A DNA stretch of 64,000 nucleotides from Planctomycetaceae bacterium (GTDB lineage Bacteria; Planctomycetota; Planctomycetia; Planctomycetales; Planctomycetaceae): the NCBI GenBank assembly GCA_016795145.1, contig JAEUII010000440.1:1-64000 (forward strand). The letters run 5' to 3'. This document shows positions 514-26,600 of the stretch, one piece after another (within the stretch, counting starts at the first letter, position 1; each line of letters starts with the position of its first letter). The translations under genes and the position numbers were made by a program. The notes under the pieces were generated by a model. That model saw only the letters and a list, made by a program, of their open reading frames with translations. It searched no databases and had not been told where the DNA came from.

Positions 514-2466
514 TCAATCAGTTAGGCCATGCGATGTATCATCCTTCTCGCGCTCTCGACGCTGAATCGCCATCTCCCAGAACTCCCGACCGAATTTATC
601 CGAGACAACGGAAGACCGCATGACATCGGTCGCCCCGTCCGCTATTCGCAGGCCGTTGAGATCCCGCAGTCGATCGCCAATATCGACGCGATCGGAGTAC
701 CCTTCGCCACCAAACGCCCTGGCCGCAGCATCGACGGCACTCAACGCGATCTCGACACCCTCTGCCTTAAGTCCGTTGATCAATGGAGCAGCTTCTTTGT
801 AGTTTCCGTCATCCAGCAACTTTGCAGCATTGACGGCCAGAGCATGAGCCATACGCAACTCGGTGGTGTGCTGTCCCATCGGTTGCTGCAGATGAGTGAA
901 TCGTCCGATTGGGCCGCCGTAGACAATTCTCGTCTTCAGGCGTTCCGCCATTTGTTCAAGAGCACCTTCTGCGGTTCCCAGTGCGGCCGCAGTTTGCATG
1001 AGCCGCCAGTAAAGGAAATGCTGCTCGAAAACGTCACGTCCGCCGCCATCAACGCCCAGTAGACCGTCGTCAGGAACGAACACATCATTCATTGTCATCC
1101 CACCGTAAGAGTTGCCCGTCAGGCCATGAGCGCCGAACGTTTCGATCTTCAATCCCTTTGCGTCGATCGGTACAACGAAGGCACTGAGTTTCCTCGGTTT
1201 GTTCTCGGTGCTCCTTGTAATGACGATAATGTCGGTTGCCTGCTCCAGCCGAGCATTGAAGCGTTTTTCGCCGTTCAGGATGAAACCACCATCCACTTTT
1301 TTCGACGTCGACACCATAGAAGCGAAGTCCGAACCATACTCCGGCTCGGTGATAGTAATGGCAAAGTAACGCTTTCCAGCAGCGACCTCTTGTAGCATCG
1401 CCTTGCAACGAGGGGCATCAGACTTCAGCAGCACTCGTGCATGGGCAGCCCCGACCACATCGCGAAGGTTAAGGTCGTGTTTTCCAGCGTGACGAAACAC
1501 TTCCAACATCTGGCTGGAATTCCAGCCAAGACCGCCAAGCTCAACCGGAAGATCCAGCGCCGGCAGACCATAAGACGCCGATTCTCTTCGCCATGCTCGC
1601 GGCGAACGAAGTTCGCTTCGAGCCATCAAGAGTTTGGCAGTGTCATCAATGCGGCTGTTTATTTGCTCAATCGTGAGTGATTCAGGCTCTGTGGTCGATC
1701 GCGACAGTCGAATCGTAAAGACAGTATTCAGTTCATTGACATACTTACCTTGGATTTCGGGAGGGTACTCGAGGTAGAATCGTCCCGTGCCATCGGCTCC
1801 TCGTGCCAGGGTGAACTTCTTGTCCTTGACAGGAGAAGTGGGGTCTAGCACATGAAGTAGCGACTCGTCGTTCTTCTTCAACAACACAAAATGCCGTCCA
1901 AGGAAACTACCATCGGGCTGGGTTACAGAAAAACTCAGAATCTTGAGTTCACCGACACCGACTTCAAGGTGTGGCTCGCCAGCTGTCTCCCACGTTACAT
2001 TGTCGGTTGCGTAAGGAGAATTCGGAGCAGACTGAATCTCGACCTCAATATCTATACCATTGATGTGTTTCTCGTAATGCAACAGCAGTTCGACAAACAG
2101 CTTGTTACTCACTCGACCATCCAGCAATGCGGGAATGGCCTCAAAGGACTGCAATGACAAGCGATGTGGGTTGGCATGAGGCTCAATCCCAGCCATTCCA
2201 CGAAGGGCTTGGGTCGCGATAACTGCCGCCGCACTGGGGCATGCACCGCCACCGCTCTTGGCGATCAATTTGTCGAGTTCACTTTGTTTGACGAGGACGT
2301 CACCAGTTCCGCCGTCCAGCCGCTGTAAATCCCCAAGAACATCGCCCACCAATTGCCATGGCGATTCAGTGGTCGTCGCAGTTTCCTGAGCGACAGTCGC
2401 GCAACTGAACATCACTGTGACGAAAAGAAAGGCAATCATTTGCATCCGTTTGAACTTGAGGGACAT
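514..2466 (-). CDS. Exported Cys-His-Asp (C39/papain-like) domain fused to acyl-CoA dehydrogenase
   Basis: A 650-residue protein. The ATG at 2466 is chosen because AAGGA lies about 8 bases upstream and the product then begins with a Sec-type signal (hydrophobic residues 8-21, likely cleavage after ATVA near residue 26). Residues 65-215 carry GGGACPS (Cys76), GRHFVLL (His192) and LDP (Asp208), in the order of the catalytic Cys-His-Asp of papain-fold/C39-like peptidases. Residues 262-640 form a full-length acyl-CoA dehydrogenase: TEPEYGSD at 373-380 is the FAD/substrate signature, and AFGGEGYSDRV...DGATDVMR is the C-terminal signature. At the usual catalytic-base position there is Asp (ADGAT) rather than Glu. 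A soluble flavoenzyme behind an export signal is topologically odd. Both domain calls rest on motifs; the fusion is directly visible as one uninterrupted frame. The N-terminal function is less certain than the dehydrogenase. Confidence 0.75.
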   Translation of the reverse strand: MSLKFKRMQMIAFLFVTVMFSCATVAQETATTTESPWQLVGDVLGDLQRLDGGTGDVLVKQSELDKLIAKSGGGACPSAAAVIATQALRGMAGIEPHANPHRLSLQSFEAIPALLDGRVSNKLFVELLLHYEKHINGIDIEVEIQSAPNSPYATDNVTWETAGEPHLEVGVGELKILSFSVTQPDGSFLGRHFVLLKKNDESLLHVLDPTSPVKDKKFTLARGADGTGRFYLEYPPEIQGKYVNELNTVFTIRLSRSTTEPESLTIEQINSRIDDTAKLLMARSELRSPRAWRRESASYGLPALDLPVELGGLGWNSSQMLEVFRHAGKHDLNLRDVVGAAHARVLLKSDAPRCKAMLQEVAAGKRYFAITITEPEYGSDFASMVSTSKKVDGGFILNGEKRFNARLEQATDIIVITRSTENKPRKLSAFVVPIDAKGLKIETFGAHGLTGNSYGGMTMNDVFVPDDGLLGVDGGGRDVFEQHFLYWRLMQTAAALGTAEGALEQMAERLKTRIVYGGPIGRFTHLQQPMGQHTTELRMAHALAVNAAKLLDDGNYKEAAPLINGLKAEGVEIALSAVDAAARAFGGEGYSDRVDIGDRLRDLNGLRIADGATDVMRSSVVSDKFGREFWEMAIQRREREKDDTSHGLTD

Positions 2467-2708: not shown

Positions 2709-3626
2709 TCATGTATTGATGCCAAGACGATTCTTTGCATCTAGAACCATCTTCTCCGATCCAATACGCATGTCGGTCTCGTACTCATCTCTAAACCACA
2801 TGTATACACGCTGTGGAACCGTTGGCGAACTCTTTCTTCGCTCAAAAACTGTATCCTGAAGGCGTCGAGATGCCTCCAAGAATTCTTCTTGCGGAACCGT
2901 CTCGGTCAGCCCGCGATGCCATATCTTTTCAAGTATCGACTTTGATTTTTCAGAAGCAGAAGCCGAATCTTGGTGCTTTCGTCCTTCTCGGAAAAGCTTG
3001 AGTGCTGCCGGCAAAAGCGGCATCAGCACGGAAACAACAATACGATCAGCATCCCACTTCAGATATAGAGAAACTGCCGGTGCGATAATCACCATGAAGA
3101 ATATCAGCACAACATAGAGAGTGAAGTACCCCCGCCGCAGCGTCGAATCCCATCGCATATTTGCACGCTGGCAGACAAGGCGACCATACTCAATCGGAAG
3201 TTCACTAGCTGATAGTGGATACCAATCTAAAAGCCGGTCTGTCGTCTCCGTCTTTTTGAATTTCGTCGCCAGGTTATGGATGGTTTCTGGATCGGGGCGA
3301 GGATCACAAAGAAACGAATTCCATGGAATACGAAATAGGTCTGTATCGAACGCCTCTTGGATTCTCGCTCCGAGTTCCTGCTTCTGTTTGATAGTTGGCT
3401 CAAGAAAGATTATATCGAAGAGCAGAATGCAGAGTGCGTACAGAGCCGCCCATGCCTTACAGGCGGGGCACGCCCATGAGACGATGGGGCCGAGGGCGGC
3501 CGCAGAAAGTGCAAGCACAGACTGCGTTGTAGCCATCTGTTTCACAGTCGCGTAGGCTTTGCTGGATGCCGCGATCTGGTCTACAAATTCAGGAAGTCTC
3601 TGTCGTTCTGAGATGTCATTCAACAT
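2709..3626 (-). CDS. S-4TM family predicted pore-forming CBASS effector
   Basis: A 305-residue protein. The start at 3626 (MLNDISERQ) lies 5 bases after the stop of the upstream nucleotidyltransferase; an alternative start at 3674 would overlap that gene, but the chosen N-terminus fits the family's usual beginning. Four hydrophobic segments are visible: about residues 36-52, 56-76, 167-189 and 195-212, arranged as two pairs separated by a ~90-residue cytosolic stretch containing DLFRIPWNSF and a P-x-x-E-x-I motif, the layout of SMODS-associating 4TM (S-4TM) proteins. In CBASS systems such proteins are predicted to bind a cyclic oligonucleotide and permeabilise the inner membrane, killing the infected cell. 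Co-orientation and tight spacing with the CD-NTase support this role. No ubiquitin-transfer-like or HORMA/TRIP13 accessory genes are adjacent, so this would be a minimal (type I-like) system. Confidence 0.82.
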   Translation of the reverse strand: MLNDISERQRLPEFVDQIAASSKAYATVKQMATTQSVLALSAAALGPIVSWACPACKAWAALYALCILLFDIIFLEPTIKQKQELGARIQEAFDTDLFRIPWNSFLCDPRPDPETIHNLATKFKKTETTDRLLDWYPLSASELPIEYGRLVCQRANMRWDSTLRRGYFTLYVVLIFFMVIIAPAVSLYLKWDADRIVVSVLMPLLPAALKLFREGRKHQDSASASEKSKSILEKIWHRGLTETVPQEEFLEASRRLQDTVFERRKSSPTVPQRVYMWFRDEYETDMRIGSEKMVLDAKNRLGINT

Positions 3627-3631
3627 GCGAT

Positions 3632-4495
3632 TCAACCGTATGCTGGGAAGTAATCGCCGAAGACAATCCGCCATTTACCAAACGCTGATTCGATCTTTCC
3701 ATTATCGGCAAGGTCGATCGCTTCTGTAGCTTTGTCCAAAGCTGTTTTCATGCGGGAAGTGACTTCGTCTCTCTTCGTCTGAGTGTCGAGATACGAGCCA
3801 ACATTTCCACCGTAACCAGCGGGATCATATACGCCAAGCGTGATCTTGTTCCTTGCGTTGTCGAAGAAGTATTTGACTGCAGATGGGTAGTCCGTGATCT
3901 CCGCGTACTGAAATAAATCATAGGCCAATGTTTCTAGATGAAATGACCTGAGTTTCAGACTATGCGCCCGATTCCAACACTTCAACATTTTCACGAGAGG
4001 GACGAATTTACCGCCCCTTTTTGCATTAAGGGTAGACCACAACTCGATGTGTTTTGATGGATCCGTGGGGATCCATCGCTTCTGAATCGAATCCGGAATC
4101 AGATATCCGCCTCCTTGACGGTCAAATCCTGGCACCACATCCACGTAGAAATCTGTGAATCTGATCGTGACCGCCTGTCCATCGCGACTGATCTCCGAGT
4201 TGTTGTACGACTTCGCCAAAGCTCGCTTCACCTTATCCAGTAAAGACGCATGGCCATCTTTCTCGAAGTACTTGGAATTCATCACGAGGAAGACATCCAC
4301 ATCAGCTTCTGCCAATGGCGCGATCATCGTGTTTCGCATGTATGAGCCGACGAGAAATGACCGTTCAACTGTCATTTCCTTTGCGACATTATCTCGGACG
4401 TTCTGTTGTCGAGCAGAGACTGTCGAAGCCTGCAGGCTGGTGATCTCAAGGTTCTCTTTCAGTTTTTGGAACCCAGAGGTAACTGTCGTCGCCAT
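3632..4495 (-). CDS. CD-NTase (SMODS-type cyclic oligonucleotide synthase)
   Basis: A 287-residue nucleotidyltransferase of the CBASS/SMODS group. The ATG at 4495 has GGGGAG 8 bases upstream; an extended frame to 4645 lacks such support. The polymerase-beta-like active site is complete: helix motif GSYMRNT (G50-S51), paired metal-binding acidic residues ADVDVF (D65 and D67), and a third acid in FYVDVVPGF (D119). Residues 165-190 (LVKMLKCWN..., SFHLETL) match the C-terminal helical half of the family. On phage sensing such enzymes make a cyclic di- or trinucleotide that activates a partner effector; here the partner is the S-4TM gene starting 5 bases downstream. The nucleotide product cannot be read from sequence. 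The neighbouring tRNA fragment and toxin remnants suggest acquisition within a mobile island. Confidence 0.88.
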   Translation of the reverse strand: MATTVTSGFQKLKENLEITSLQASTVSARQQNVRDNVAKEMTVERSFLVGSYMRNTMIAPLAEADVDVFLVMNSKYFEKDGHASLLDKVKRALAKSYNNSEISRDGQAVTIRFTDFYVDVVPGFDRQGGGYLIPDSIQKRWIPTDPSKHIELWSTLNAKRGGKFVPLVKMLKCWNRAHSLKLRSFHLETLAYDLFQYAEITDYPSAVKYFFDNARNKITLGVYDPAGYGGNVGSYLDTQTKRDEVTSRMKTALDKATEAIDLADNGKIESAFGKWRIVFGDYFPAYG

Positions 4496-4696
4496 AAACA
4501 AGTCTCCCCAACCTTCTCGCCAGTGGTATGCCACACCTACGGAAGGGGGGAGAGTAATGTTGGGCCGTAGAATGTCAACGCAAGACTCTTCGTCGATGGC
4601 GGTAGTCCTCAAAAAGCAACAGGAGAAGCGAAACGTGCGAGGCAAGCAAAAACGCGCAATGCATGAATGCTGCCAGCTTTCCGGCTAAAGCCGGGA

Positions 4697-5200
4697 CTAA
4701 AAGCGGAGTTGTGAGTCTTTACCGTTGGAATTGGGCGGGTTGCGATGGCCGAATTTGGCGAAGAGCGGTGGCAAGACCAGCAGGTTGAGCAATGTCGATG
4801 TGACGAGTCCGACGTGGATGACGAAGGCCATCGGGTATTCGATCTCCTGTCCGGGTTTGTTGCCGGTGACGAGAAGCGGAAACAGGGCCACGCCGGTGGT
4901 CAGGGCCGTCAAGAGGATCGGGGCGAGGCGTTCTTCGGCTCCGCGAATGAACAGTTCCGGGCCGAAGGGGACGCCCTTTTCTCTTTGCAGATGCCGGTAG
5001 TGGTCCATCAGCATGATGCCGTTACGAACTGCGACTCCGAAGACCGTGACAAAGCCGATCAACGATCCGCGTGAGATAACTCCTCCGGACAGAAACGCTC
5101 CTCCGATGCCGTCGACCAGAGCAACGGGAAGTGTCAGGAAGATCAGTAATACGGACCGCATATTCTGGAAGTCGGAATACAGCAGCAGGACGCCTGTTGC
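4697..5200 (-). pseudogene. C-terminal remnant of CusA/CzcA-type RND heavy-metal efflux pump
   Basis: Only about 165 residues of a protein normally near 1,030-1,060 residues remain. The frame carries the last transmembrane helices of an HME-type RND transporter: [67 protein letters not shown] and a final helix ending in LVLPPLF. Homology starts abruptly near 5200, and the ~20 residues the frame could add upstream look unrelated. There is no adaptor or outer-membrane component nearby. It is a truncated, non-functional gene, presumably cut by the recombination that shaped this island. Its 3' end is about 200 bases from the CBASS promoter region. Confidence 0.85.
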
Positions 5201-5274
5201 ATTGTAAGGCTTAAAAAGGTGCCTCGTCCGCAGAATCTGTGGGTAGGAATTCATTGGATCGTGGCATTCCCTTG

Positions 5275-5445
5275 TCATGAGTCGGCGAGGATGGCACGCG
5301 GTATCTGCACGTTGCACAACTGACAGATAGCGGCCTTCACTTGGGTCGGCAGATCATCCCAAGACTCAATGACATGTCTCAGATCCTCTGAAATTGCCGA
5401 CCGGCAACCATTGATGCAACCATCGCAGGGGACATGTTGTAACTC
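5275..5445 (-). pseudogene. Unidentified C-terminal protein remnant beside the tRNA fragment
   Basis: The minus strand encodes a protein-like tail with VPCDGCINGC, a later CQLC, and the pattern [14 protein letters not shown] followed by VKAAI. No start is visible other than ones running into the tRNA fragment. The D-L-x-x-V-I-x-x-W-x-x-L-P pattern resembles short tails seen near recombinases in some planctomycetes, but I cannot assign it. I read it as a truncated gene end placed against the tRNA fragment, with low confidence. Confidence 0.25.
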
Positions 5446-6267: not shown

Positions 6268-7437
6268 TCAGCGCGGAATTGGCATCGTGTCAGTGCCAAG
6301 CACATCAATGTACGACTGCCATGCGTAGGCTCGGTCCCGTTTTCTGCCCGTGACTTCGTGAAGCACGCGGGCTGCGCAAAGCGAATCGATCGCCTTCTGA
6401 GTGGTTGGTTTTGTCGCGGCCAGCAGCTCACCGGCTCGTGCCAGAGTCACGACCGGATGCTGCGGAAGAAGTTCGAACAGGCGAAGGGAATTGACTGTTG
6501 CCGATTGGTGCTGAATGGCTTTCAGACGATCCTCTCCAACAACCTGAAACAAACGCTGAGCCGTCGTGACGCCATCGTCTGCCGACTCAATGACACACCG
6601 CAGAAAGAACTCGATCCAGCCTTCCCAATCACCATGCGTACGGACTCGACTCAGCCTTTCATAGTACTCCTGCTGGTGACGCTTGAAACCAAGGCTGACA
6701 TACAGCAGCGGCGACGAAAGGAGTCCCCACTGTTCGACGAGCAGGGTAATCAGCAACCGGCCGATGCGTCCGCTGCCGTCAAGAAACGGGTGAATGGTCT
6801 CAAACTGTACGTGGGCGAGTCCGGCTCGCACAAGTGGCGGCAGAGAATCACCACTGTGAATCCACTGCTCCAGTGCGCTCAGGCAGTCTGGAACTTCGTC
6901 CGGTGGAGGTGGCACAAATCGAGCGGTTCCAGGACGTGTCCCTCCGATCCAGTTCTGCGATGTCCGCACCATTCCTGGCTGTTTGTCACTGCCGCGAGCG
7001 CCTCGCATCAATCGCTGATGAACCGCACACAGCAGACGCACGCACAATGGCAGCCCATCCGGCTTTTCGATTTCAGCGCGGGCAAATGTCAGGGCATCCA
7101 CGCAGTTACAGATCTCTTCCACATCTGCTGTACGGTCCGATTGACGAGTAGCTTCCCATGCCACGACATCTTCAAGCGTGGCCTGTGTGCCTTCTATCTG
7201 AGAGGACACCACGGCTTCCTTGCGGACGAAGCCATACAGGAACCAGTCCGGGCTGGGCACCATGCTTCCCGCAATCTCCAGTCTGCCGATGGCGGCGATA
7301 GCTGTGGAATGCAGATCGCACAGGATCCCTTCAAGGCAAAAGACTGGGTTCGCCGGTGGCAAGGGGTATGGCACAAAGGCATTGACCCGTTCGCCGGCAA
7401 ATTCTCTGGTAACGTATTTGCCAGTCTCTCGACTCAT
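6268..7437 (-). CDS. Fic-domain protein (predicted nucleotidyl/AMP transferase) with C-terminal winged helix
   Basis: A 389-residue Fic protein. Residues 78-83 (SSQIEG, followed by T) are the N-terminal inhibitory motif S-x-x-x-E-G/N that blocks ATP binding, and residues 216-227 (HPFLDGSGRIGR) are the Fic active-site loop with catalytic His216; the usual Asn is Ser222, a substitution seen in some family members and worth noting. The C-terminal ~80 residues (TLARAGELLAATKPTTQKAI...) look like a winged helix. Such proteins transfer AMP or another nucleotide part to Tyr/Ser/Thr of a target and serve as toxins or regulators. The start at 7437 has AAGG about 12 bases upstream. Its neighbours are toxin and defence remnants, which favours a conflict role, but no target can be inferred. 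Confidence 0.88.
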   Translation of the reverse strand: MSRETGKYVTREFAGERVNAFVPYPLPPANPVFCLEGILCDLHSTAIAAIGRLEIAGSMVPSPDWFLYGFVRKEAVVSSQIEGTQATLEDVVAWEATRQSDRTADVEEICNCVDALTFARAEIEKPDGLPLCVRLLCAVHQRLMRGARGSDKQPGMVRTSQNWIGGTRPGTARFVPPPPDEVPDCLSALEQWIHSGDSLPPLVRAGLAHVQFETIHPFLDGSGRIGRLLITLLVEQWGLLSSPLLYVSLGFKRHQQEYYERLSRVRTHGDWEGWIEFFLRCVIESADDGVTTAQRLFQVVGEDRLKAIQHQSATVNSLRLFELLPQHPVVTLARAGELLAATKPTTQKAIDSLCAARVLHEVTGRKRDRAYAWQSYIDVLGTDTMPIPR

Positions 7438-8695: not shown

Positions 8696-9099
8696 TGCCC
8701 TATTGTTTGGGTGGATGTAGGATCTACGAGGATGACACGATGCAGATTGTGTCTCCCGTGACCAGCGGTTTGGCACGTCTGACGCTTCGAACAATCGGAG
8801 AAAGCGCACGAGCATCTGGAAGACGATTGGACTGATCAGAATGGGTCTCTGGTATAGTTGATCCGGTTCCACGGCGTGCGGTGCGGCGTTTCTTCAATGA
8901 TGCGACTCAACGCATGGTCATCCAGAAAAAGTACACGACGCCTGCTGTGAACCGACATCCCTCAGGAAAATTCGAAGTGCCCTGTTTGACAGCACTCTTC
9001 GGCCTCGGAGATACTGTCTCTTTATCGCGGTCGTTCGCCTGTGTGCATGCGTTGTCGTCGTAACTGCTGTTGCCGTACACACTGTTGCCTGGATCAGCC
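8696..9099. other. Intergenic region upstream of kinase-STAND gene
   Basis: About 400 bases with no convincing gene on either strand; small overlapping frames on both strands have no domain signature. It presumably includes the promoter of the large kinase gene, but no box is clear enough to place. Confidence 0.4.
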
Positions 9100-12000
9100 A
9101 TGTCATCTCCACCACCGGATCGTGATCCGCGTTTGGATGCAACAGTCAGGGGACCGGGCATCGCTCAGATCGAAGAGGTCTGTCATCGTTTTGTGCGAGA
9201 TTGGCAGAGTGGTCAGAGGCCGAAGATTGAGGACTATCTGAGCGGGGTTCCGGCGGAGAGTTACCGGGAACTGCTGCTGGAGCTGGTTCGCAAAGAAGTG
9301 TCGCTGTGTGTGCAATCCGGCGAAACGCTGACACTCGAGGATTACCTGTCTCGGTTCCCGCATGATCGTGAGACAGTTGCCCGGGCGTTTGCTTCGACCG
9401 AGCAACAGCAAGGCGGGGACTCGATCGTTGCTTCTTCGCATCCGTCCAAAGAACAAACATTCCTTGGAGCTCAGGTTCATGACACTGCAGCGGGAGCATT
9501 GATGGCGCCGGCTCAGCGTTACCGCAAAGTTCGAAGGCTGGGTGAAGGTGCCTTTGGAACTGTTTGGCTCGCGGAGGACCTCGAACTTCGGCGACAGGTG
9601 GCTCTGAAAGAACCTCGGACTGACCGGCTCAGGACGGCGTCAGATATCGAAACGTATCTTTCAGAAGCGCGTGTCCTGGCGAGTCTGGACGATCCACGTA
9701 TCGTGCCGGTCTACGATGCGGGGCGAACTGCGGAGGGTTCCTGCTATGTTGTCTCGAAGCTGATCGACGGCACTGACCTTGCTGCCTATGTGAAGCAGAA
9801 GCCGCTTTCGTTTGACGAGATTGCGAAGCTGGTTGCTCAGGTGGCGGAGGCTCTGCAGCATACGCACAACAGAGGCCTGATTCACCGTGACATCAAGCCA
9901 GCCAACATTTTGGTGGATCACCAGGGCCGACCTTACGTTGCTGACTTTGGTCTGGCGCTGCGTGAGGAGGACTTTGGAAAGCAGGGAGGAATTGCGGGAA
10001 CTCCGGCGTACATGAGTCCTGAGCAGGCTCGAGGTGAAGGCCACCTGATTGATGGCCGATCCGATCTCTTCAGTCTCGGTGTTGTGCTCTATGAGCTGCT
10101 GGCGGGGACAAGACCTTTCGCTGGAGTAAACTGGCGAGAGACTCTGGAACAGATTGTGACGGTCGAAGCGACACCGCTCACTCAGCGGAATGAAGCCATT
10201 CCGAAAGAACTGGAACGTATATGTTTCAAGGCACTGTCCAAGCGAGCTGCGGACCGTTATCCGTGTGCGGCGGACATGGCAGAAGATCTGCGACATTGGT
10301 CTGCCTCTCCCGCCGCAGGACTTCAGCCTCAGGCATCTGCACGGATCGTTCCCAGGGGGCTTCGTTCATTTGAAGCGGGTGACAGCGATTTCTTTCTGGA
10401 CCTGCTGCCGGGAGCGCGCGACCGGGATGGTCTTCCTGAAACGCTGCGATTCTGGAAGACGCGCATTGAAGAGACGGATCCGGACAAAACGTTTCGCGTC
10501 GGGCTGGTCTATGGTCCCAGCGGTTGCGGCAAATCGTCGCTGATGAAGGCTGGTCTCCTGCCGCGACTCAACGATCATGTCGTTCGTGTCTTTCTGGAAG
10601 CCACGCCGGACCAGACCGAGCAGCACATGCTGCAGAGCCTTCACCGGGCCTGTGCTGATTTGCCGCGAGAGACTTCACTGGCGGAAACGCTTTCGGCGAT
10701 TCGTCGAGGGCGAGGCATACCCGCCGGACGCAAGGTCGTGGTGATCCTCGATCAGTTTGAACAGTGGCTGTACGCTCACGGGGCCGAGCGGAACACCGAG
10801 CTGGCGGCCGCTCTGCGACAATGCGATGGCGGACGGATTCAGGCCGTGCTGCTGGTGCGAGATGATTTCTGGATGCCCGTTTCCGACTTCCTGCGAGCCC
10901 TGGAAGTTCCGTTGCTGGAAGGTATCAACGCCGGAGCCGTGGGGCTGTTTGATCCTCTGCATGCCAGGAAAGTTCTGTCCGAATTCGGAAGAGCCTATGG
11001 TCGGCTTCCGGAGAATCTGAGCCAGCTCACAGCATCTCAGACAGCGTTTTTTGATCAAGCTGTCGGCGGGCTGTCGCAGGATGGCAAGGTGATCTGCGTA
11101 CGCCTCGCTTTGTTCGCCGACATGATGAAGGGGCGTGAGTGGACGCCGGCAGCTCTTCAGGAAGTTGGCGGCACGGCTGGTGTCGGGGCGACATTCCTCG
11201 AAGAGACTTTCAGCAGCCGCACCGCGCCGCCTCAACATCGTCAGCATCAGGAAGCGGCTCGCGCTGTGTTGCGAGCATTGCTTCCCGCCACAGGCACGGA
11301 TATCAAGGGCCACATGCGAACGGCCAGTGAGCTACAGGAAGCGAGTGGGTACTCGAACCGTCCCAACGACTTCGCGGAACTGATGCGCATTCTTGACAGC
11401 GAAGTGCGGCTGGTCACCCCGGTCGCTGGAGACAGAGTTGAAGAGGGGAATGAGAAGGGAGAACCGTCCGACGCTGCAATTTCCTCTTCTTCCTCTTCTT
11501 CCTCTTCTTCCTCTTCTTCCTCTTCTTCCTCTCCTCATGCATTGAGTTTTCAGCTGACTCACGACTACCTCGTGCCGTCGCTGCGAGACTGGCTGACCCG
11601 CAAGCAGCGGGAGACGAGGCGTGGTCGAGCAGAACTCAAGCTTGCGGAGCTCTCATCGCTGTGGGAATCGAAGCCGGAGAATCGCCATTTGCCGTCGCTG
11701 ATGGAATGGCTCAGCATCCGTATGTTGACGGAATCCAGACGCTGGACCGTACCGCAGCGGACCATGATGAACCGAGCAGCTCGGGTGCTGTGTTCGCAGA
11801 CGGGATTGCCAACTCTGGCTGTGTTTGTGGTCCTGGTTTTTAGTCTTGTCACTCGAGAACAGGGGCGTCAGCGACAGGAAGCGACCCTGGTCCAGGGACT
11901 GGTTAATCAGCTTGTCAGTGCGGAACCAGCGCAGGTGCCTGAGATCGTCAAGGAGCTGGAAAACCATCGTGACGTTGCGTCGACGTCCCTGGCGTCGCTG

Positions 12001-13983
12001 GTTTCTTCAGATGCCAAAACCGATCCGGAGAAGCGAACGCAGTTGCATGTCCGACTTGCGATGGTTGGCAGCGACAGGTCTTTGGTCGAACCGCTGATGG
12101 AAGACATGCTGACCAACAAGAGCACCTACATTGGTCCGATTCGCCAGCAATTGCGTCCGTACGCAGCGGAACTCACCGAGAAACTTCAAGTCATCCTGCG
12201 AGATGAAAACGCAGATGCCCAGCACCGATTTCGGGCAGCGATCGCGCTGGCAGATTATCTTCCTGAGTCCGAAGCGGATTGGTGGACCGAGCAGGACCTG
12301 CAACTTGTCGCCAGACAGCTCGTCACGGAGAACGCGGAATTCCAGCCGCTGCTGCGTCAGAATCTGCGGCCCATCAGCGATCGCCTGCTGGTGGGACTGG
12401 AGACGATTTTCAGTGACCCCGCATCGACCGAAATGCAGAAGCTGAGTGCTGCGAATGCGTTTGCGGACTATGCGGCCAGCGATATTCCCAGGTTGTCTCA
12501 ATTGCTGACCGTGGCGACACCGGAGCAATTTGCGGTGCTTTATCCGATCATCGCTGGCAATGGCGATTCTTCTACCGTGGAAGAACTCAGCAGGATTGCG
12601 GCTACTTCGCCGTCGGAGGAGGCAGGCTCCGTTGAACGAGTGAGCTTCGGTCAGCGGAGAGCGAATGCGGCTGTGACACTGCTTCGACTTGGCGAGCGTG
12701 AAAAAGTGTTGCCGGTCTTTGAAATGACCGACGATCCCGAAGCACTGACGCAGTTCATTTTTCGCTGTCGTGACCGTGGTGCGAGTGTGGGGGATCTTCT
12801 GGATTGCCTGCGTCTGGTCAGCGAATCTCCTGTTGATCGGTATCCCTCACAGGCGCGATATGCTCTGCTCCTGGCACTTGGCGAGTATTCGCTGGATGAG
12901 GTTCCTGCGACGCAACGGGAGGCGCTGGTTCAGCAGTTGGCAGACTTGTACCGCAGTGATCCCAGTTCAGGAGTGCATGGAGCCTCTGGCTGGTTGCTCC
13001 GGCGCTGGGGGCAGAACGAATTGGTGCGGCAAGTCGATCAGACGGCAGTGCCTTATTCCGCGGATCGCGAGTGGTTTACTCTGGCGATTGCAGTAGAGCC
13101 GAGTTACTCGGAATTGTTATCAAAACCGCTGACGCCACAGCCTCCACCCAAAACCCACTATTACACGTTCATCGTGTTTCCTGAAGGAGATTCGCAGATT
13201 GGTTCGGTCGATGATGAACTGGGGCGAGAGACGGATGAACGTCGTCATACTGCCACTCTGGTGCATTCATTCGCCCTGCTGGATCGAGAGATCACGTTCG
13301 AAGAGCTGATCGAGTTCTCTTCGCAGTATTCGCGACTGATGCAACAATACGAAGCAAATCCGGAAGATGCCGGGTTGGGAGTTTCCTGGTATGACTCGGT
13401 GGCTTTCTGCAGGTGGCTCTCACAGCAATCGGGGTTATCTGAGTCTGATCAGTCTTATCCGGACCCAGAATCGCTGGACGTGAAAGAATATCCTCGCGAC
13501 CTGATTGTTGGATCAGATTCGGTGCCCCGTGACTGGCCCGTGGTATTTGGTCGTGGATTTCGTCTGCCGACGGAATCCGAATGGGAAGTTGCGTGCCGTG
13601 CAGGTACGCGAACTGCGTATGGGTTTGGGAGTGACAGTTCATTGCTGCCCCGATTTGGCTGGTTTCAGGGGAATAGCGAAAACCGAGTTCATCCTCCGCG
13701 AGAACTGTTGCCAAACATCCGCGGTTTGTTCGATATGCATGGAAATCTGTCTGAGTGGACACAGAACTGGTATGGTGAATATGGGTTATCCACGATGTTG
13801 GAAATGATGAAACTGAAAACTGGCAGAGGTCGCGTGCACCGCAATGGTGATTGGCGCGACGACGCTCTGGGTGCCCGGACTGCAAACCGAGGTACCGCCT
13901 TCCCGTCGCTCCGCTCAAAGACTCTCGGCTTTCGCCTGGCGATCAGTTCACCGTCTATGCTGTTGCAGGATGCAGGCAATTGA
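9100..13983 (+). CDS. Ser/Thr kinase - STAND NTPase - FGE-like fusion protein
   Basis: 1,627 residues from ATG 9100 (MSSPPPDRDP). Residues ~140-410: Hanks kinase with glycine loop LGEGAFGTVW, Lys170, catalytic HRDIKPAN (from ~262), DFG at 282 and GTPAYMSPEQ activation segment. Residues ~455-720: STAND-type NTPase with Walker A GPSGCGKSS (~472) and Walker B VVVILDQFEQW (~548). Then a winged-helix-like segment, a linker of 17 serines (~795), a hydrophobic helix near 905-920, HEAT-like helical repeats (~960-1330), and a C-terminal formylglycine-generating-enzyme/C-type-lectin-like domain (~1350-1625: FRLPTESEWEVACRAGT, GLFDMHGNLSEW, LGFRLA). Kinase, STAND and FGE-like modules in one chain are known from predicted bacterial conflict or signalling systems; STAND proteins act as ligand-triggered switches. 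No sulfatase is nearby, so the FGE-like part is more likely a binding domain. Substrate and trigger are unknown. Confidence 0.88.
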   Translation: MSSPPPDRDPRLDATVRGPGIAQIEEVCHRFVRDWQSGQRPKIEDYLSGVPAESYRELLLELVRKEVSLCVQSGETLTLEDYLSRFPHDRETVARAFASTEQQQGGDSIVASSHPSKEQTFLGAQVHDTAAGALMAPAQRYRKVRRLGEGAFGTVWLAEDLELRRQVALKEPRTDRLRTASDIETYLSEARVLASLDDPRIVPVYDAGRTAEGSCYVVSKLIDGTDLAAYVKQKPLSFDEIAKLVAQVAEALQHTHNRGLIHRDIKPANILVDHQGRPYVADFGLALREEDFGKQGGIAGTPAYMSPEQARGEGHLIDGRSDLFSLGVVLYELLAGTRPFAGVNWRETLEQIVTVEATPLTQRNEAIPKELERICFKALSKRAADRYPCAADMAEDLRHWSASPAAGLQPQASARIVPRGLRSFEAGDSDFFLDLLPGARDRDGLPETLRFWKTRIEETDPDKTFRVGLVYGPSGCGKSSLMKAGLLPRLNDHVVRVFLEATPDQTEQHMLQSLHRACADLPRETSLAETLSAIRRGRGIPAGRKVVVILDQFEQWLYAHGAERNTELAAALRQCDGGRIQAVLLVRDDFWMPVSDFLRALEVPLLEGINAGAVGLFDPLHARKVLSEFGRAYGRLPENLSQLTASQTAFFDQAVGGLSQDGKVICVRLALFADMMKGREWTPAALQEVGGTAGVGATFLEETFSSRTAPPQHRQHQEAARAVLRALLPATGTDIKGHMRTASELQEASGYSNRPNDFAELMRILDSEVRLVTPVAGDRVEEGNEKGEPSDAAISSSSSSSSSSSSSSSSSPHALSFQLTHDYLVPSLRDWLTRKQRETRRGRAELKLAELSSLWESKPENRHLPSLMEWLSIRMLTESRRWTVPQRTMMNRAARVLCSQTGLPTLAVFVVLVFSLVTREQGRQRQEATLVQGLVNQLVSAEPAQVPEIVKELENHRDVASTSLASLVSSDAKTDPEKRTQLHVRLAMVGSDRSLVEPLMEDMLTNKSTYIGPIRQQLRPYAAELTEKLQVILRDENADAQHRFRAAIALADYLPESEADWWTEQDLQLVARQLVTENAEFQPLLRQNLRPISDRLLVGLETIFSDPASTEMQKLSAANAFADYAASDIPRLSQLLTVATPEQFAVLYPIIAGNGDSSTVEELSRIAATSPSEEAGSVERVSFGQRRANAAVTLLRLGEREKVLPVFEMTDDPEALTQFIFRCRDRGASVGDLLDCLRLVSESPVDRYPSQARYALLLALGEYSLDEVPATQREALVQQLADLYRSDPSSGVHGASGWLLRRWGQNELVRQVDQTAVPYSADREWFTLAIAVEPSYSELLSKPLTPQPPPKTHYYTFIVFPEGDSQIGSVDDELGRETDERRHTATLVHSFALLDREITFEELIEFSSQYSRLMQQYEANPEDAGLGVSWYDSVAFCRWLSQQSGLSESDQSYPDPESLDVKEYPRDLIVGSDSVPRDWPVVFGRGFRLPTESEWEVACRAGTRTAYGFGSDSSLLPRFGWFQGNSENRVHPPRELLPNIRGLFDMHGNLSEWTQNWYGEYGLSTMLEMMKLKTGRGRVHRNGDWRDDALGARTANRGTAFPSLRSKTLGFRLAISSPSMLLQDAGN
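11482..11535 (+). repeat. 9-bp microsatellite encoding poly-serine linker
   Basis: Five perfect copies of TCCTCTTCT (11482-11526) plus one imperfect copy, in frame within the kinase-STAND gene, encode 17 consecutive serines. Any change in copy number alters the linker by three residues without a frameshift, so this is a length-variable, in-frame tract. Confidence 0.95.
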
Positions 13984-20653: not shown

Positions 20654-23600
20654 ATGTCGCTCAAATCCTGGCTCCATGCGGTCACAACCAGCACTTTCCG
20701 TCGAGATCGTGCTGCTCGCAGGTCAATTCATCGTCGCAGTGCTCGTCGCCGAGTAGTGGCCAGCAGCGAAGGGATGGAGACCAGAATCATGCTGTCTGCG
20801 GTTCATTGGATCAGTGACTCCAATGGATTCTGGGACGACCCGGCCAACTGGCAGGATCAATCCACACTTGCAAATCGCGTCCCGGGAGGAGGCGATGAGG
20901 TCGTCATCAACCGACCGGGAAGTTCAGTCACAGTCACGATTCGTCCTGGTTCCGGAGGTCAGGGTGCAGGACTCTTCACGCTGGCAGCTGACGAATCGCT
21001 GCGTATCGAGGGTGAAGACTTCAGTGTTTTTCAGCCAAGCACACTGGCGGGTAATGTTCTGGTGTCCGGTGGGCGCATCGATGGGCGGCAGAGAGTCACA
21101 TTGAATGGACAGAATCACTGGAGCGGAGGATCGTTCGCCGGGCAGATTACGATAGGTGCTGCGGGAGTCCTTGATATTTCCGGTGCGGCTGACAAGGCGA
21201 TCAGTGCGCAGTTTGAGAACTTCGGAACGGTGATTCATTCCGGTTCTGGTGATGTGGTTGATACTGCGAATGGCTCCGGAAGTTTGTGGGTGAATCAGCC
21301 AGGCTCTGTGTACGATTTCACTGGAGATGACGGTCGTCAGCTTACCTCCACATTCAACAACCTTGGCACAGTTCGCAAATCCGCAGGCAGTGGAGAGTCG
21401 TCATTCACCGAGAACTTCCACAACCTTGGTGGAACCGTTGAAGCCACTCAGGGAAAACTGAAACTGTCTCGAGGGTCAAGTACGGGCGGGACCTACAACG
21501 CGTCAGCTGGTGCCGTGCTTGATATGACTGGCGGTTCCACGGCGTTCTTCACCGGCACACTGACGGGCTCCGGGTCAGGACGAGTGGAGCTGTCGAGTGG
21601 TTCCATGCATACCGGCAGTACCGAGGCGACGCTGAACTTTCCAGCGGGCTTGTTTCACTGGACCAGTGGAGCATTCACAACATCAGGCCGTGCATGGAAA
21701 AACAGTAGGACTGTGCAGATCTCTGGCGCCTCAGACAGGACGATCAGTGCGCAGTTTGAGAACTTCGGAACGGTGATTCATTCTGGTTCCGGTGATGTGA
21801 TTGATACTTCGAACGGCTCTGGCAGTTTGTGGGTGAACCAGCCAGGTTCTGTGTACGAGTTCACTGGAGATGATGGTCGTCAGCTCACGTCCACATTCAA
21901 CAACCATGGTACGGTTCGCAAATCCGCAGGCAGCGGAGAATCGTCATTCACCGAGAACTTTCACAACCTTGGTGGAACCGTTGAAGCCACTCAGGGAAAA
22001 CTGAAACTGTCTCGAGGTTCAAGCACAGGCGGGACGTACAACGCGTCGGCTGGTGCCGTGCTTGATATGACTGGTGGTTCGACGGCGTTCTTCACCGGCA
22101 CACTGACGGGTTCCGGGGCAGGTCGAGTAGAGCTGTCGAGTGGTTCCATGCATACCGGCAGTACCGAGGCGACGCTGAACTTTCCAGCGGGCTTGTTTCA
22201 CTGGACCAGTGGAGCATTCACAACATCAGGCCGTGCATGGAAAAACAGTGGGACTGTGCAGATCTCTGGCGCCTCAGACAGGACGATCAGTGCGCAGTTT
22301 GAGAACTTCGGAACGGTGATTCATTCTGGTTCCGGTGACGTGATTGATACCGCAAATGGCTCTGGCAGTTTGTGGGTGAATCAGGCTGGCTCTGTGTACG
22401 ATTTCACTGGAGATGATGGTCGTCAGCTCACATCCACATTCAATAACTTTGGTACGGTTCGTAAGTCTGCGGGCAGCGGAGATTCCTCTTTCAATGCGGT
22501 GTTCAATAACTCCGGCGGGGTCCTTGAATCGTTGAGTGGTCGTTTGCTGCTCGCAGGCACTGGTGGCTTGTGGACGGATGCGACGTTGCTGGCCACCGGG
22601 GAAGGTCGAGTTGTCCTTGCATCACACTTGTTCGTGACTGGCCTGATCTCCGGCAGTGGTACGGGCAGAGTTGAGCTCGCGGATGGATCTCTGACATCAG
22701 TCAGTGACGGTGGATCCAGGCTTCTTGCGAAGCTGAACTTTCCTCAGGACTACTTCCACTGGACGGGAGGAACAATTCGAGGGAACGGACTGACCAACAT
22801 CGGTACGATCACCATTTCACCACTTGTGTCCGGACCTGCGCTGGAAGGACCGATGCTCAATGAAGGGCTGATCCAGAATATCGGGCCGGGATCGTTTAGT
22901 CTGAATGGTCAGCTCCTGCACAACCGAGTGGGTGGCGTGTATGAGGTTCACGGAAATATTACGACATACGGCCGAAACCAGTTCGGAGGGCGTGGGACAT
23001 TTCAGAACGACGGCACGATTCGGCGTGTTTCGGGTGCCGGTACCGCGATTATTGACGCGTCACTGGCGGGTTCCGGTGGACGAGTCGAAAACGAAACTGG
23101 GACGCTCGCATTCAATAGCGGAGGCAGCTCAAGTGGCATGATCTTTGAGGCTGCTGCCGGAACAGAGATTGAGTTCAATGGAGGCTTCTCAGAATCACTG
23201 TTCTGGAGCGGCCGACACAGCGGCAGCGGTGCTGGACGTGTGAATCTGAATGTGGCGTTGCAGGGTGATAACGCGGTTGGCGGAAATCTGGATTTTCCAG
23301 ACGGCATGCTGCAGATCGTCGGCGGCGGCATCTTTGGCTTCATTGTGAATACCGGAGCCGTTCAGCTGAATTCGACGGACGGCATATTTGCCAGAGCTGT
23401 GTTTGAGAACAACGGCAAGTGGGTTCTCGCTGGAGCCGGAGATTTCGTGCTCAACGCGAACAGCCAGTTTCGGAATCGTGGATTGCTGGAGTTCCGCACG
23501 GATGCGGACATGGTTGTCCCCGGAGACGCATCGATCGGGTCGATGTACCTTTTCAACAGCGGTACACTTCGAAAGTCAGGTGGCAGTGGAAGTTCGGCCC

Positions 23601-26600
23601 TGCGTCACGATGGCTCTTCAAAGGAACTTGCGTTCGACAATACGGGGATCGTGGAAGTTCAGACGGGCACACTTTCTCTGAATGATCGAGTCCTGCAGTT
23701 CGACGGGACCACTCTGACAGGCGGCATGTGGAAGGTCGGCCCGCTTGCCACACTGACGGTTCCATCGGCGACTTCGATTACTACAAACCAGGGCCACATC
23801 ATTCTGGACGGGCCAGGATCCAATTTTACAAATCTGACAAATCTTGCCAGCAATTCCGGAAGTTTCACACTGGAGGGCGGACGCGATTTTACATCGACAG
23901 GAAACCTGACGAACAGCGGGCAGATCAGAGTTGGGCCAGGCAGCGTACTGACTGTCACCGGGAACCTGACCGAGACCGCCGCGTCAAGTCTGGTTGGACT
24001 GTGGCGAGCAGACGGTAATGCCCAGGACTCCAGTGGAGCGGGTCGGCATGGCACATTGAAGGGGACGATTCCAGTTGTTCCGGGGCGGTATTCAGACAGT
24101 TTTGAATTCAACGGCCAGCACAATTATGTGTCGCTGGGAAACCCGACCGCGCTGTGGCTTCAGAACTTCACAATCAGTGCATGGGTTCGGCGTGAAGAGA
24201 GTGGCAGTGGATCGATCCTTTCGTACGGTCTGTACGGTTACGGATTTGGTTTCGCGCCTAATGGAAGACTTTTCCTGTCGCAAATCGCGATAGGCCATGT
24301 CGAGTCCCCGAGCCTTGGCGTGAACGATTCAGAGTGGCATCATGTCGCCGTCACGAAGTCTGGTGGCACGGTCACGTTTTACGTTGATGGACAAAAGGAA
24401 GAGGTTTTCGGTTATTTCCCTTCGTATAGCTTTTTTACCAATGTGGCGATTGGGGGCATTGAAAGCGATGGGAGTACAAATTCATCGTTCGCTGGTCGCA
24501 TTGATGAAGTGGCGGTTTACAACCGAGTACTGACTGCCGCGGAACTCGCTCGAGTCGCTGGGAATGCTGATGTTCCCAACAGCGGCCGCACGGTGCCTTC
24601 CGTGGATGTTGTGATTTCAAATCGTCCCGCGACCGGAGAGTATGGTCGAGTTGTTGTGAATGGTCAGGCGTCCCTGACAGGTCCCCTCAACATCGTTCGG
24701 GCTGACGGATTCGGACCAGTACAGGGTGATTCCTATGATGTTGTGTCGTTTGCGGGACGAACGGGGAATTTCTCCTCTATCAACGGCCTTTCGCCGTTCT
24801 TCACAGCAACGACTTCGGCCACGGGCATACTGATTGGAACGGACCATTCCGCCGGGGATCTGGCCACAGTTTCTGCGAAGGCCTTAGGTGCTGGTCCGGC
24901 TGTTAGCGGGCAGTCGATTCAGATCGAATACACAGTTCGCAATGACGGCTCCAACGCGCTCTCTGCTGACTGGCAGGATACCGTTTTTCTTTCCACAGAC
25001 CGAGTCCTTTCGGCAGACGATACATTACTCGCGCGGGTTGGCCACACTGGAGGTCTCATCGCTGGCGCCTCGTATACGCAGACCGTGACAGCAAACGTAC
25101 CGGGTCTTGTGGATGATGACTACTACGTTATCGTTGTTGCGAACGCAGACAAAGCCGTCCCTGAAGCTGACCGGGGCGATAACATCATCGACTCAGACGA
25201 GGCAATCCGCGTCCAGTTGCCGACTCTTGCATTTGGTCAGGTGTTGAATGGCACGATACTCCCTGGTCAGCCGATGCATTTTCGATTGACGGTCCCGGCC
25301 GGATCCCGTGATGTCGCCATTGCGTTTGATGCTGCAGATGGCTCCGCGGGAGCCATCGAACTGTATGCGGGACGCAGTGTGTTGCCACAGGCATCGCAGT
25401 TTGAGTTCGCCAGTGGCGAGTTGAACTCAACCGATGCCAGCCTTCTGATGTCCGATGTAACTCCTGGCGAGTATCTTCTGACGGTTTCTCCGAGGCGGTT
25501 GACGGGACCTCTTTCGTTTTCACTGATCGCAGACACACCGCAGGCGACATTGTCGAGTGTTGTCCCGGCGAAAGCCGGCAAGGGAACGGTGACGTTTCAG
25601 ATCCGCGGGAGCAACCTCCTTGAAAGCGACGTCGTCGAACTTGTGAACTCCGCCGGGACAAGAATTGCTGCCCGATCGACCGCGCGTGATGACGCATCTC
25701 ATTTGTTTGCGACGTTTGATCTGACCAGTGCGGCACAAGGGGCCTATGACGTTGTCGTCACGCGATCCGGTAACTCCCGAGTGCTGTCCTCCGCTGTAAC
25801 AGTCGAAGCTCTGAAAACGTCCACGCTCTCTTCGCGACTTGAGCTGCCGAATCGGTTCCGAGTAGGACTGACGTTCAATGGCGCCGTCGTGTACGAGAAT
25901 CCTGGTAATGTCGATATGCCGGCGCCATTGATTGTGCTGTCGACTGACGGTCAGGCGCATCTCCGTCTGTCCCGGTCTGATGAGTTCCAGCCCAACAATC
26001 TGGTCCTGGTGGCGGCCAGTCAGACAGGTCCGGCAGGAATTCTGCGACCTGGCGAAGTATGGCGGATCCCATTCCAGGTGTTTTCTCCGTTCGTGAGTGA
26101 GATGCAGGTTTCAATCGACTATCAGACGGCTGACGCCTCAGACGCAGTAGACTGGGATGCGATGGAAGCCAGTATCCGCCCGTCCGGCGTAGCGGATGCA
26201 GACTGGGATAAATTCTGGCTGCCGTTCGTTCATGAAGCGGGCAGCAGCATCGGCGGCTACGTGCAGGTGATGGCCCGATATGCCACGGAAGTGCAGGCTC
26301 GCGGGGGGCGATTTGTTTCGGGAGCGGACGTGCTGGAAGTCGCGATGCGGGATCTCTACGAGCGATCTCACGTCACTGCAAAAGGTCAAGTCTTTCTCGA
26401 TGACGCTTCACATCCGCTGTCTGGTGCTGAGGTCCTGGCGAGCCGGACGTCGGGAACGCTGGCAGAGCGGATAGCCGTTGCCGTTCGAACGGACTCGGAA
26501 GGTAGGTTTCGACTTCCCGAACTCTCGCCGGGAACCTATGCGATTACCGTTCCGGGTTATCAACAGTTCTCTGCAACGACAGTCACTGTCACAGGAAGCG

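Follow-up and report, generated by a model that had tools for sequence, protein, structure and literature searches.

A patchily distributed planctomycete gene encoding an apparently exported fusion of a papain/C39-like domain and an acyl-CoA dehydrogenase-type flavin domain

Acyl-CoA dehydrogenases (ACADs) are textbook cytoplasmic or mitochondrial enzymes that work with CoA and ETF. Nitroalkane oxidase and other flavoenzymes of the ACAD fold use O2 as oxidases or oxygenases, and the acyl dehydrogenases that act on carrier proteins are unfused enzymes of biosynthetic clusters and lack an export signal. With regard to cysteine enzymes, the third catalytic residue of papain itself is Asn, and the C39-like domains of some transporters provide a precedent for a binding module. 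ACAD10 and ACAD11 use a catalytic Asp (D753 of ACAD11) and have polar residues on the matching active-site helix, which in ACAD11 bind a phosphate (PMC12440821); the reaction of ACAD10/11 needed no added electron acceptor (PMC11342911). Here, we describe a planctomycete gene in which an ACAD-type domain follows a papain/C39-like domain and an N-terminal export signal. A search of the open-access literature returned no paper describing either this fusion or any exported ACAD.

A single gene family with one architecture

The fusion is encoded on the minus strand of the window (the whole 64,000-nucleotide stretch of planctomycete DNA that was analyzed), with the ATG at 2464-2466, the coding part at 517-2466, and the stop codon at 514-516 (Table 1). 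A Shine-Dalgarno-like AAGGA is located 7 bases before the ATG, and the plus-strand translation across 514-2466 contains many stops. A sequence-only reading of this DNA had described an uninterrupted 650-codon frame, which is confirmed with the stop included; the strand, which that reading left out, is minus. The same reading had correctly placed Cys76, His192, and Asp208 in the protein and had proposed a signal peptide, in agreement with the positively charged n-region and hydrophobic h-region of the window copy. The gene is the sole full match in its genome.

Table 1. Coordinates of the fusion gene, its predicted parts, and the adjacent CBASS genes in the window
Feature	Coordinates	Strand	Basis
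Whole gene, 650-aa fusion protein	514..2466	-	Open frame; 21 full-length homologues aligned
Predicted Sec signal peptide, residues 1-26, MSLKFKRMQMIAFLFVTVMFSCATVA|QE (exact placement of the cleavage site is a judgement)	2389..2466	-	n-charge and h-region pattern in 21/21 copies
Papain/C39-like thiol-enzyme domain, about residues 50-255	1702..2319	-	AF2, Foldseek, hhalign
Cys76, putative nucleophile	2239..2241	-	Invariant in 21/21; helix start after GGG
His192, putative catalytic His	1891..1893	-	Invariant in 20/20 readable copies; aligned with C39 catalytic His
Asp208, putative third triad residue	1843..1845	-	Asp in 13, Asn in 6, Ser in 1 of the copies; aligned with C39 Asp-Pro
Acyl-CoA-dehydrogenase-type flavin domain, residues 262-640	547..1683	-	PF00441 E=2e-23; PF02770 E=2e-14; PDB ACADs E to 3e-26
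Asp610, putative catalytic base	637..639	-	Invariant in 21/21
CBASS S_4TM effector gene, judged separate from the fusion	2709..3674	-	PF18159 E=2e-75; PADLOC 4TM effector
CBASS CD-NTase (SMODS) gene, judged separate from the fusion	3632..4645	-	PF18144 E=8e-29; PADLOC cyclase E=2e-101

Searching genome contigs with the single sequence gave no match, and searching with an alignment gave seven loci, of which six are from planctomycetes and contain the fusion or a remnant of it. Using a profile of the N-terminal domain on 398 genomes of the class, we identified 19 strong matches in 18 genomes, below which there was only noise. All 19 map to open frames of 637-713 aa, and no other architecture containing this domain was found; because every profile match has the same architecture, the two halves constitute one gene family. 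In total, 20 further genes from planctomycetes share this architecture over their full length, with about 47-66% identity to the window gene. Three of these, from three other genera of the same family (genomes G024, G021, and G022), are 54, 50, and 50% identical to it over about 590-600 residues; further relatives are found in Gimesia, Rhodopirellula, Planctomycetales bacterium 10988, SV_7m_r, and another member of the Planctomycetaceae. Only 6 of the 170 genomes of the family carry the fusion and, within its genus, the window genome alone. A tree that included the closest unfused ACADs of planctomycetes placed all 21 fusions together in a single group (SH-aLRT 99). We note that Rhodopirellula solitaria CA85 has a truncated remnant of the gene that lost both ends (L026:7920-9128) and that G647 has two divergent copies of 50% identity, one (L074:9392-11302) beside a PDC-S37-like gene and the other (L077:9224-11191) beside metal-resistance genes.

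Besides Cys76 and Asp610, residues Arg191, His483, Arg488, Arg513, Asp614, and Arg617 are invariant among the 21 aligned copies, as is His192 wherever it is readable. The dN/dS values are 0.04-0.16 in both domains, which points to purifying selection on each, and about 0.75-1.5 in residues 1-27; values near 1 would be expected for a signal peptide for which only hydrophobicity matters. The conserved architecture and the invariant Cys, His, and Asp610 in 21 genes support that this is a genuine fusion of two domains. The sequence-only reading had allowed for a recombination product, an assembly error, or a frameshift and had proposed a search for the fusion in other genomes; the position of the gene, which stops 513 bases short of the end of its contig (C381), might by itself suggest such an artefact. 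The search yielded the 20 further full-length copies, with the halves not separate, and the same fusion is present in single-contig genomes (G021, G024, G432, G428, G629, G697, and G771, as well as others). An artefact or a one-off recombination is refuted by the occurrence of the fusion in many genera, closed genomes among them, and by the purifying selection on each domain, and we give it no weight.

Domain features and export signal

The N-terminal domain (residues 27-260) had no Pfam match at E<=1, including to the Peptidase C39 models PF03412 and PF13529, no match among the NCBIfam models, and nothing in the PDB by sequence search. An AlphaFold (AF2) model of the domain alone, as proposed in the earlier reading, had a pTM of 0.71; in this model, the Cys begins a helix, and the His and Asp belong to the beta part. 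Foldseek gave no strong match; the matches to which it assigned a probability close to 1 are cysteine enzymes of clan CA with E>0.007 and TM<=0.44, including IdeS/Mac-1, with TM values of 0.43-0.44 to staphopains, and glutathionylspermidine amidase followed with a somewhat lower probability. In hhalign comparisons, PF03412-type C39 domains taken from relatives matched at 86% over 24 columns comprising the His-Asp-Pro half only, with His192 opposite the His of C39 and Asp208 opposite its Asp-Pro; the values were 2% for PF13529-type domains and 0.3% for the ACAD domain of the fusion itself, which served as a control. The Gln of the C39 oxyanion hole, six residues before the Cys, is absent, and position 70 varies (K, P, T, Q, E, S, C, or R). 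Together, profile and fold comparisons weakly place the domain in the papain/C39 superfamily, and we refer to it as papain/C39-like rather than as a C39 peptidase. The label C39/papain-like in the sequence-only reading is, therefore, supported by the profile match at the His and Asp and by the weak fold matches and not by Pfam or NCBIfam. Because of the lack of a match to a curated family, the missing Gln at -6, and the variable third triad residue, we consider the hydrolase activity putative.

In the flavin domain, Acyl-CoA_dh_M (PF02770, residues 369-462) scored 54 bits (cut-off 33.3) and Acyl-CoA_dh_1 (PF00441, residues 474-620) scored 83.4 bits (cut-off 22.4). The ACAD N-terminal alpha domain (PF02771) is weakly recognized at E=0.16, and calling the acyl-CoA dehydrogenase complete was, therefore, a little too strong, with the middle and C-terminal domains standing. 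Similarly, the family signatures, which we take to be the two PROSITE-type ACAD signatures, were reported as both present and are degenerate in the window copy, in which a Y precedes G-S-D and R583 replaces the Gln of QxxGGxG. The assignment of an Asp to the usual position of the catalytic Glu was correct: in the alignment, Asp610 falls on the Glu of the EGT motif of ACADs, i.e., at the position of Glu376 in MCAD, and this acidic base is kept in all copies. Neither the WxTN-type nor the QxxGG flavin-contact motif is kept. Instead, (W/F/Y)NARL, or VARL in three copies, replaces the W/Y-I-T-N-G-type motif next to the flavin, and RxxG is found in place of QxxGG. The fusions also have a helix, HFxYWRLMQ, with invariant His483, Trp487, Arg488, and Gln491, in which the Arg is the counterpart of MCAD R256 and, by position, of ACAD11 R631. 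As judged from the alignments, the NARL-type motif and this helix separate the fusions from every unfused ACAD compared, and the flavin domain represents a separate ACAD clade with an Asp base, as in ACAD10/11. Given the Asp base of ACAD10/11 and the LRxADG motif that the planctomycete ACAD11-like proteins L017 and L018 have in common with the fusions, Asp610 is compatible with activity and not unique. By analogy to the phosphate-binding polar residues on the ACAD11 helix, we infer that the substrate of the flavin domain is polar. FAD binding is predicted.

Models for ETF alpha (PF00766) and the ETF domain (PF01012) had no match in any of 12 carrier genomes; in control searches, they had a match in 10 of 14 well-known genomes. 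In 6 of these 12 carriers, including the window genome, no PF00441 protein other than the fusion is encoded. All 21 copies have a Sec-type signal-peptide-like N-terminus with the n-region/h-region pattern, and the fusion protein is, thus, apparently exported. Unfused ACADs in general lack this pattern, in a comparison with rough values because some of them were read from an upstream codon. The absence of ETF from the carriers, the frequent status of the fusion as sole PF00441 protein, and the export signal argue strongly against the standard ETF-linked role, and participation in ETF-linked beta-oxidation appears very unlikely.

Mobility and genomic neighborhood

Sequence identity between fusions was uncorrelated with that between the LepA proteins of the same genomes (r=0.04; 66 genome pairs). 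For example, G697 and G021, which belong to different families, have LepA proteins of 62% identity and fusions of 80% identity; for G771 and G629, from one genus, the values are 88% and 53%. Two 97%-identical copies (L036 and L080) have in common only the gene together with about 375 bases before it and 70 after it. L021 and L035 have a common upstream chromosomal flank, and their homology stops 9 bases past the stop codon, after which different defense genes follow. These comparisons support horizontal transfer of the gene, which is patchily distributed (18 of 398 genomes of the class). A search of plasmid, phage, and viral contigs for the gene gave no match. We observed that about 530 bases of the E1/JAB ubiquitin-like region of L034 (11341-11865) recur in L024 (7105-7630), upstream of the fusion and between it and a transposase gene, which likely reflects co-transfer and subsequent decay.

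Just upstream of the fusion in the window and on the same strand, the two CBASS genes form an operon with overlapping frames (2709-4645). Anti-phage genes of unrelated systems were found near 13 of the 21 loci, and 8 copies had no defense neighbor in the region scanned. At L068, the fusion is downstream, on the same strand, of a CBASS with E2 and patatin, i.e., of a type different from that in the window; at L034, it is downstream of a ubiquitin-like operon, and HmaC is also present. Type I R-M genes are near L035, L023, and L025, with PDC-S18 at L023 and, by similarity, at L025. Other neighbors are PDC-S06 (L036), BrxC (L069), HmaA/HmaB (L071), PDC-S37 (L074), Wadjet JetA (L080), PDC-S58 (L073), and a BrxHI-like helicase (L021); Avs2 was detected in the pooled scan and is taken as the 1508-aa gene of L074. 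Based on a PADLOC threshold of E<=1e-20 and all genes of the matched regions, 8 of 13 matched regions had a match, against no more than 6 of 29 control regions taken from these genomes (Fisher p=0.015), where the control count is an upper bound from pooled output and p=0.047 if it is 8; a rule using the longest gene within 6 kb was dropped as too coarse. The enrichment of defense genes near the fusion is, thus, modest. The fusion protein itself matched no PADLOC-DB model at E<=0.01.

CBASS genes adjoin only 2 of the 21 copies (those of the window and L068), and this linkage is not conserved. Because the neighbors vary among the copies, we ruled out that the fusion is a member of the CBASS operon, and because no neighbor is conserved, that it is a subunit of any one neighboring defense system. 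Nor did we find a conserved catabolic, transporter, or other partner gene among the 21 loci, and the neighbors consequently name no pathway. As the sequence-only reading stated, no function can be named for the fusion. The suggestion in that reading of the edge of an island holds in that the gene is mobile and usually located in defense or mobile islands and fails with respect to a recombination product.

The window contains additional genes of note. What appears to be the remnant of an AcrB-type RND pump, 206 aa of its C-terminal part, is encoded beside the CBASS genes (4697-5317, minus strand), and a Fic/DOC family protein is encoded near them (6268-7437, minus strand). On the plus strand, 9070-13983 encodes a 1637-aa protein with Ser/Thr kinase, nSTAND1 NTPase, and FGE-sulfatase domains in a conflict-system-like architecture, and 20654-31744 is an open frame of 3696 codons.

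Candidate functions and comparison with known systems

We tentatively favor, at somewhat less than even confidence, that the gene is a mobile single-gene unit for a stand-alone, exported, bifunctional thiol-enzyme/flavoenzyme that acts outside the cytoplasm without ETF, probably in microbial conflict. After export by Sec, Cys76 of the papain/C39-like domain would attack an amide, ester, or thioester with His192 as the base, and the domain would hydrolyze or transfer an acyl or peptidyl group. In the second domain, which would bind FAD, Asp610 would remove a proton at the alpha position of the same polar substrate or of one linked to it. Either O2 or an acceptor other than ETF would reoxidize the reduced flavin, or the chemistry would be redox neutral as in ACAD10/11. 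Most plausibly, the two domains together would modify, inactivate, or make a small molecule or peptide outside the cytoplasm. Conflict with other bacteria or phages is the least certain step. The strict fusion hints that the two domains share a substrate, and they may cooperate on a carrier-bound acyl group; the full-length AF2 model (pLDDT 54) is too poor for domain contacts. A point against the favored explanation is that a Sec-exported flavoprotein must obtain its FAD outside the cytoplasm.

Alternatively, the N-terminal domain might be a non-catalytic binding module that presents the flavin domain, as the sole enzyme, with a peptide or acyl carrier, in line with a third triad residue that is Asp, Asn, or Ser, the lack of an oxyanion Gln at the C39 spacing, and the lack of a matching family model. 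We consider this doubtful given the invariance of Cys76 and His192, the strong purifying selection, and the Asn that serves as third residue in papain. The N-terminal hydrophobic stretch might instead anchor the protein in the inner membrane, with the enzyme acting in a membrane-lipid or quinone-linked reaction and no periplasmic release. Some copies have long h-regions, and a membrane quinone would answer the missing ETF; the cleavage-like small residues after the h-region and the free evolution of the stretch make such an anchor rather improbable.

With respect to the biological role, the gene might be plain metabolic cargo, i.e., encode an enzyme exported to act on a nutrient or signal molecule and simply reside in variable islands, where all mobile genes collect. 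Patchy distribution and horizontal transfer would suit any accessory trait, some copies (L072, L075, and L077) are among transport, metal-resistance, or conjugation-type genes, and the fusion protein is not listed in PADLOC. The missing conserved catabolic or transporter neighbor across 21 loci and the enrichment of defense neighbors over controls speak against it, and we regard it as unlikely, if the least so of the alternatives. Slightly less probable is a stand-alone extracytoplasmic defense or antagonism factor, in which an exported CoA- and ETF-free flavoenzyme of the ACAD fold and a thiol acyltransferase or protease coupled to it would chemically modify an envelope, phage, or antimicrobial target, with the gene moving among Planctomycetes as a single-gene unit in defense islands. 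An accessory role for the adjacent CBASS or another defense system, e.g., in processing a signal or the phage envelope with it, would fit the position of the gene directly downstream of CBASS in the window and L068 and of the ubiquitin-like operon in L034. This role is highly improbable because copies of 90-97% identity have different neighbors, which elsewhere are Wadjet, BREX, R-M, Hma, or no system, and because the fusion protein is apparently exported and CBASS is cytoplasmic.

The domain superfamilies are known; their combination, the family of the N-terminal domain, and the altered flavin motifs are absent from Pfam, NCBIfam, and PADLOC. A conserved, apparently exported ACAD in genomes without ETF, often as the sole family member, would mean that the fold was recruited to new chemistry, for the discovery of which the fusion is a clean single-gene system, and the defense-island setting makes an anti-phage or antagonism role directly testable.

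Among known systems, Peptidase C39 and clan CA resemble the N-terminal domain in the Cys at a helix start, the His and Asp-Pro in the beta part, the His-Asp spacing of 16, and the profile match over the His-Asp-Pro half. The domain differs from Peptidase C39 in lacking a Pfam match and a Gln at -6 of the Cys, in its variable third residue, in the 116 residues between Cys and His, and in being fused to a flavin domain rather than to an ABC transporter. PigA/RedW prolyl-PCP dehydrogenase, MbtN, and TcsD, which were among the search matches, are similar in that an ACAD fold acts on non-CoA thioesters; these carrier-protein dehydrogenases differ in being unfused and in lacking an export signal, and we noticed no gene for a carrier protein around the fusion. 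With the ACAD superfamily (1ws9; human SCAD 2vig), the fusion shares the middle and C-terminal domains, the equivalents of MCAD R256 and R281 (R488 and R513), and a C-terminal motif of the RDxxxxRIxxG(T/A)(S/T) type. It departs from this superfamily in its signal peptide, extra N-terminal domain, own clade, and a genome without ETF, and it has Asp, NARL, and R583 where the superfamily has Glu, WITNG, and the Gln of QxxGGxG, respectively. ACAD10/ACAD11 and the bacterial LvaC of 4-hydroxyacyl-CoA catabolism resemble the fusion in the catalytic Asp in LRxADG and the polar residues of the active-site helix, and ACAD10/ACAD11 are a precedent both for an ACAD joined to a second enzyme and for a flavin reaction that proceeds without an electron acceptor (PMC12440821, PMC11342911). 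The ACAD11-like planctomycete genes L017 and L018 are on a long branch separate from the fusions. Compared to ACAD10/ACAD11, the fusion lacks the HCMR motif and upstream Arg, has HFxYWRLMQ there, has no kinase domain by Pfam and a papain-like partner in its place, and carries an export signal.
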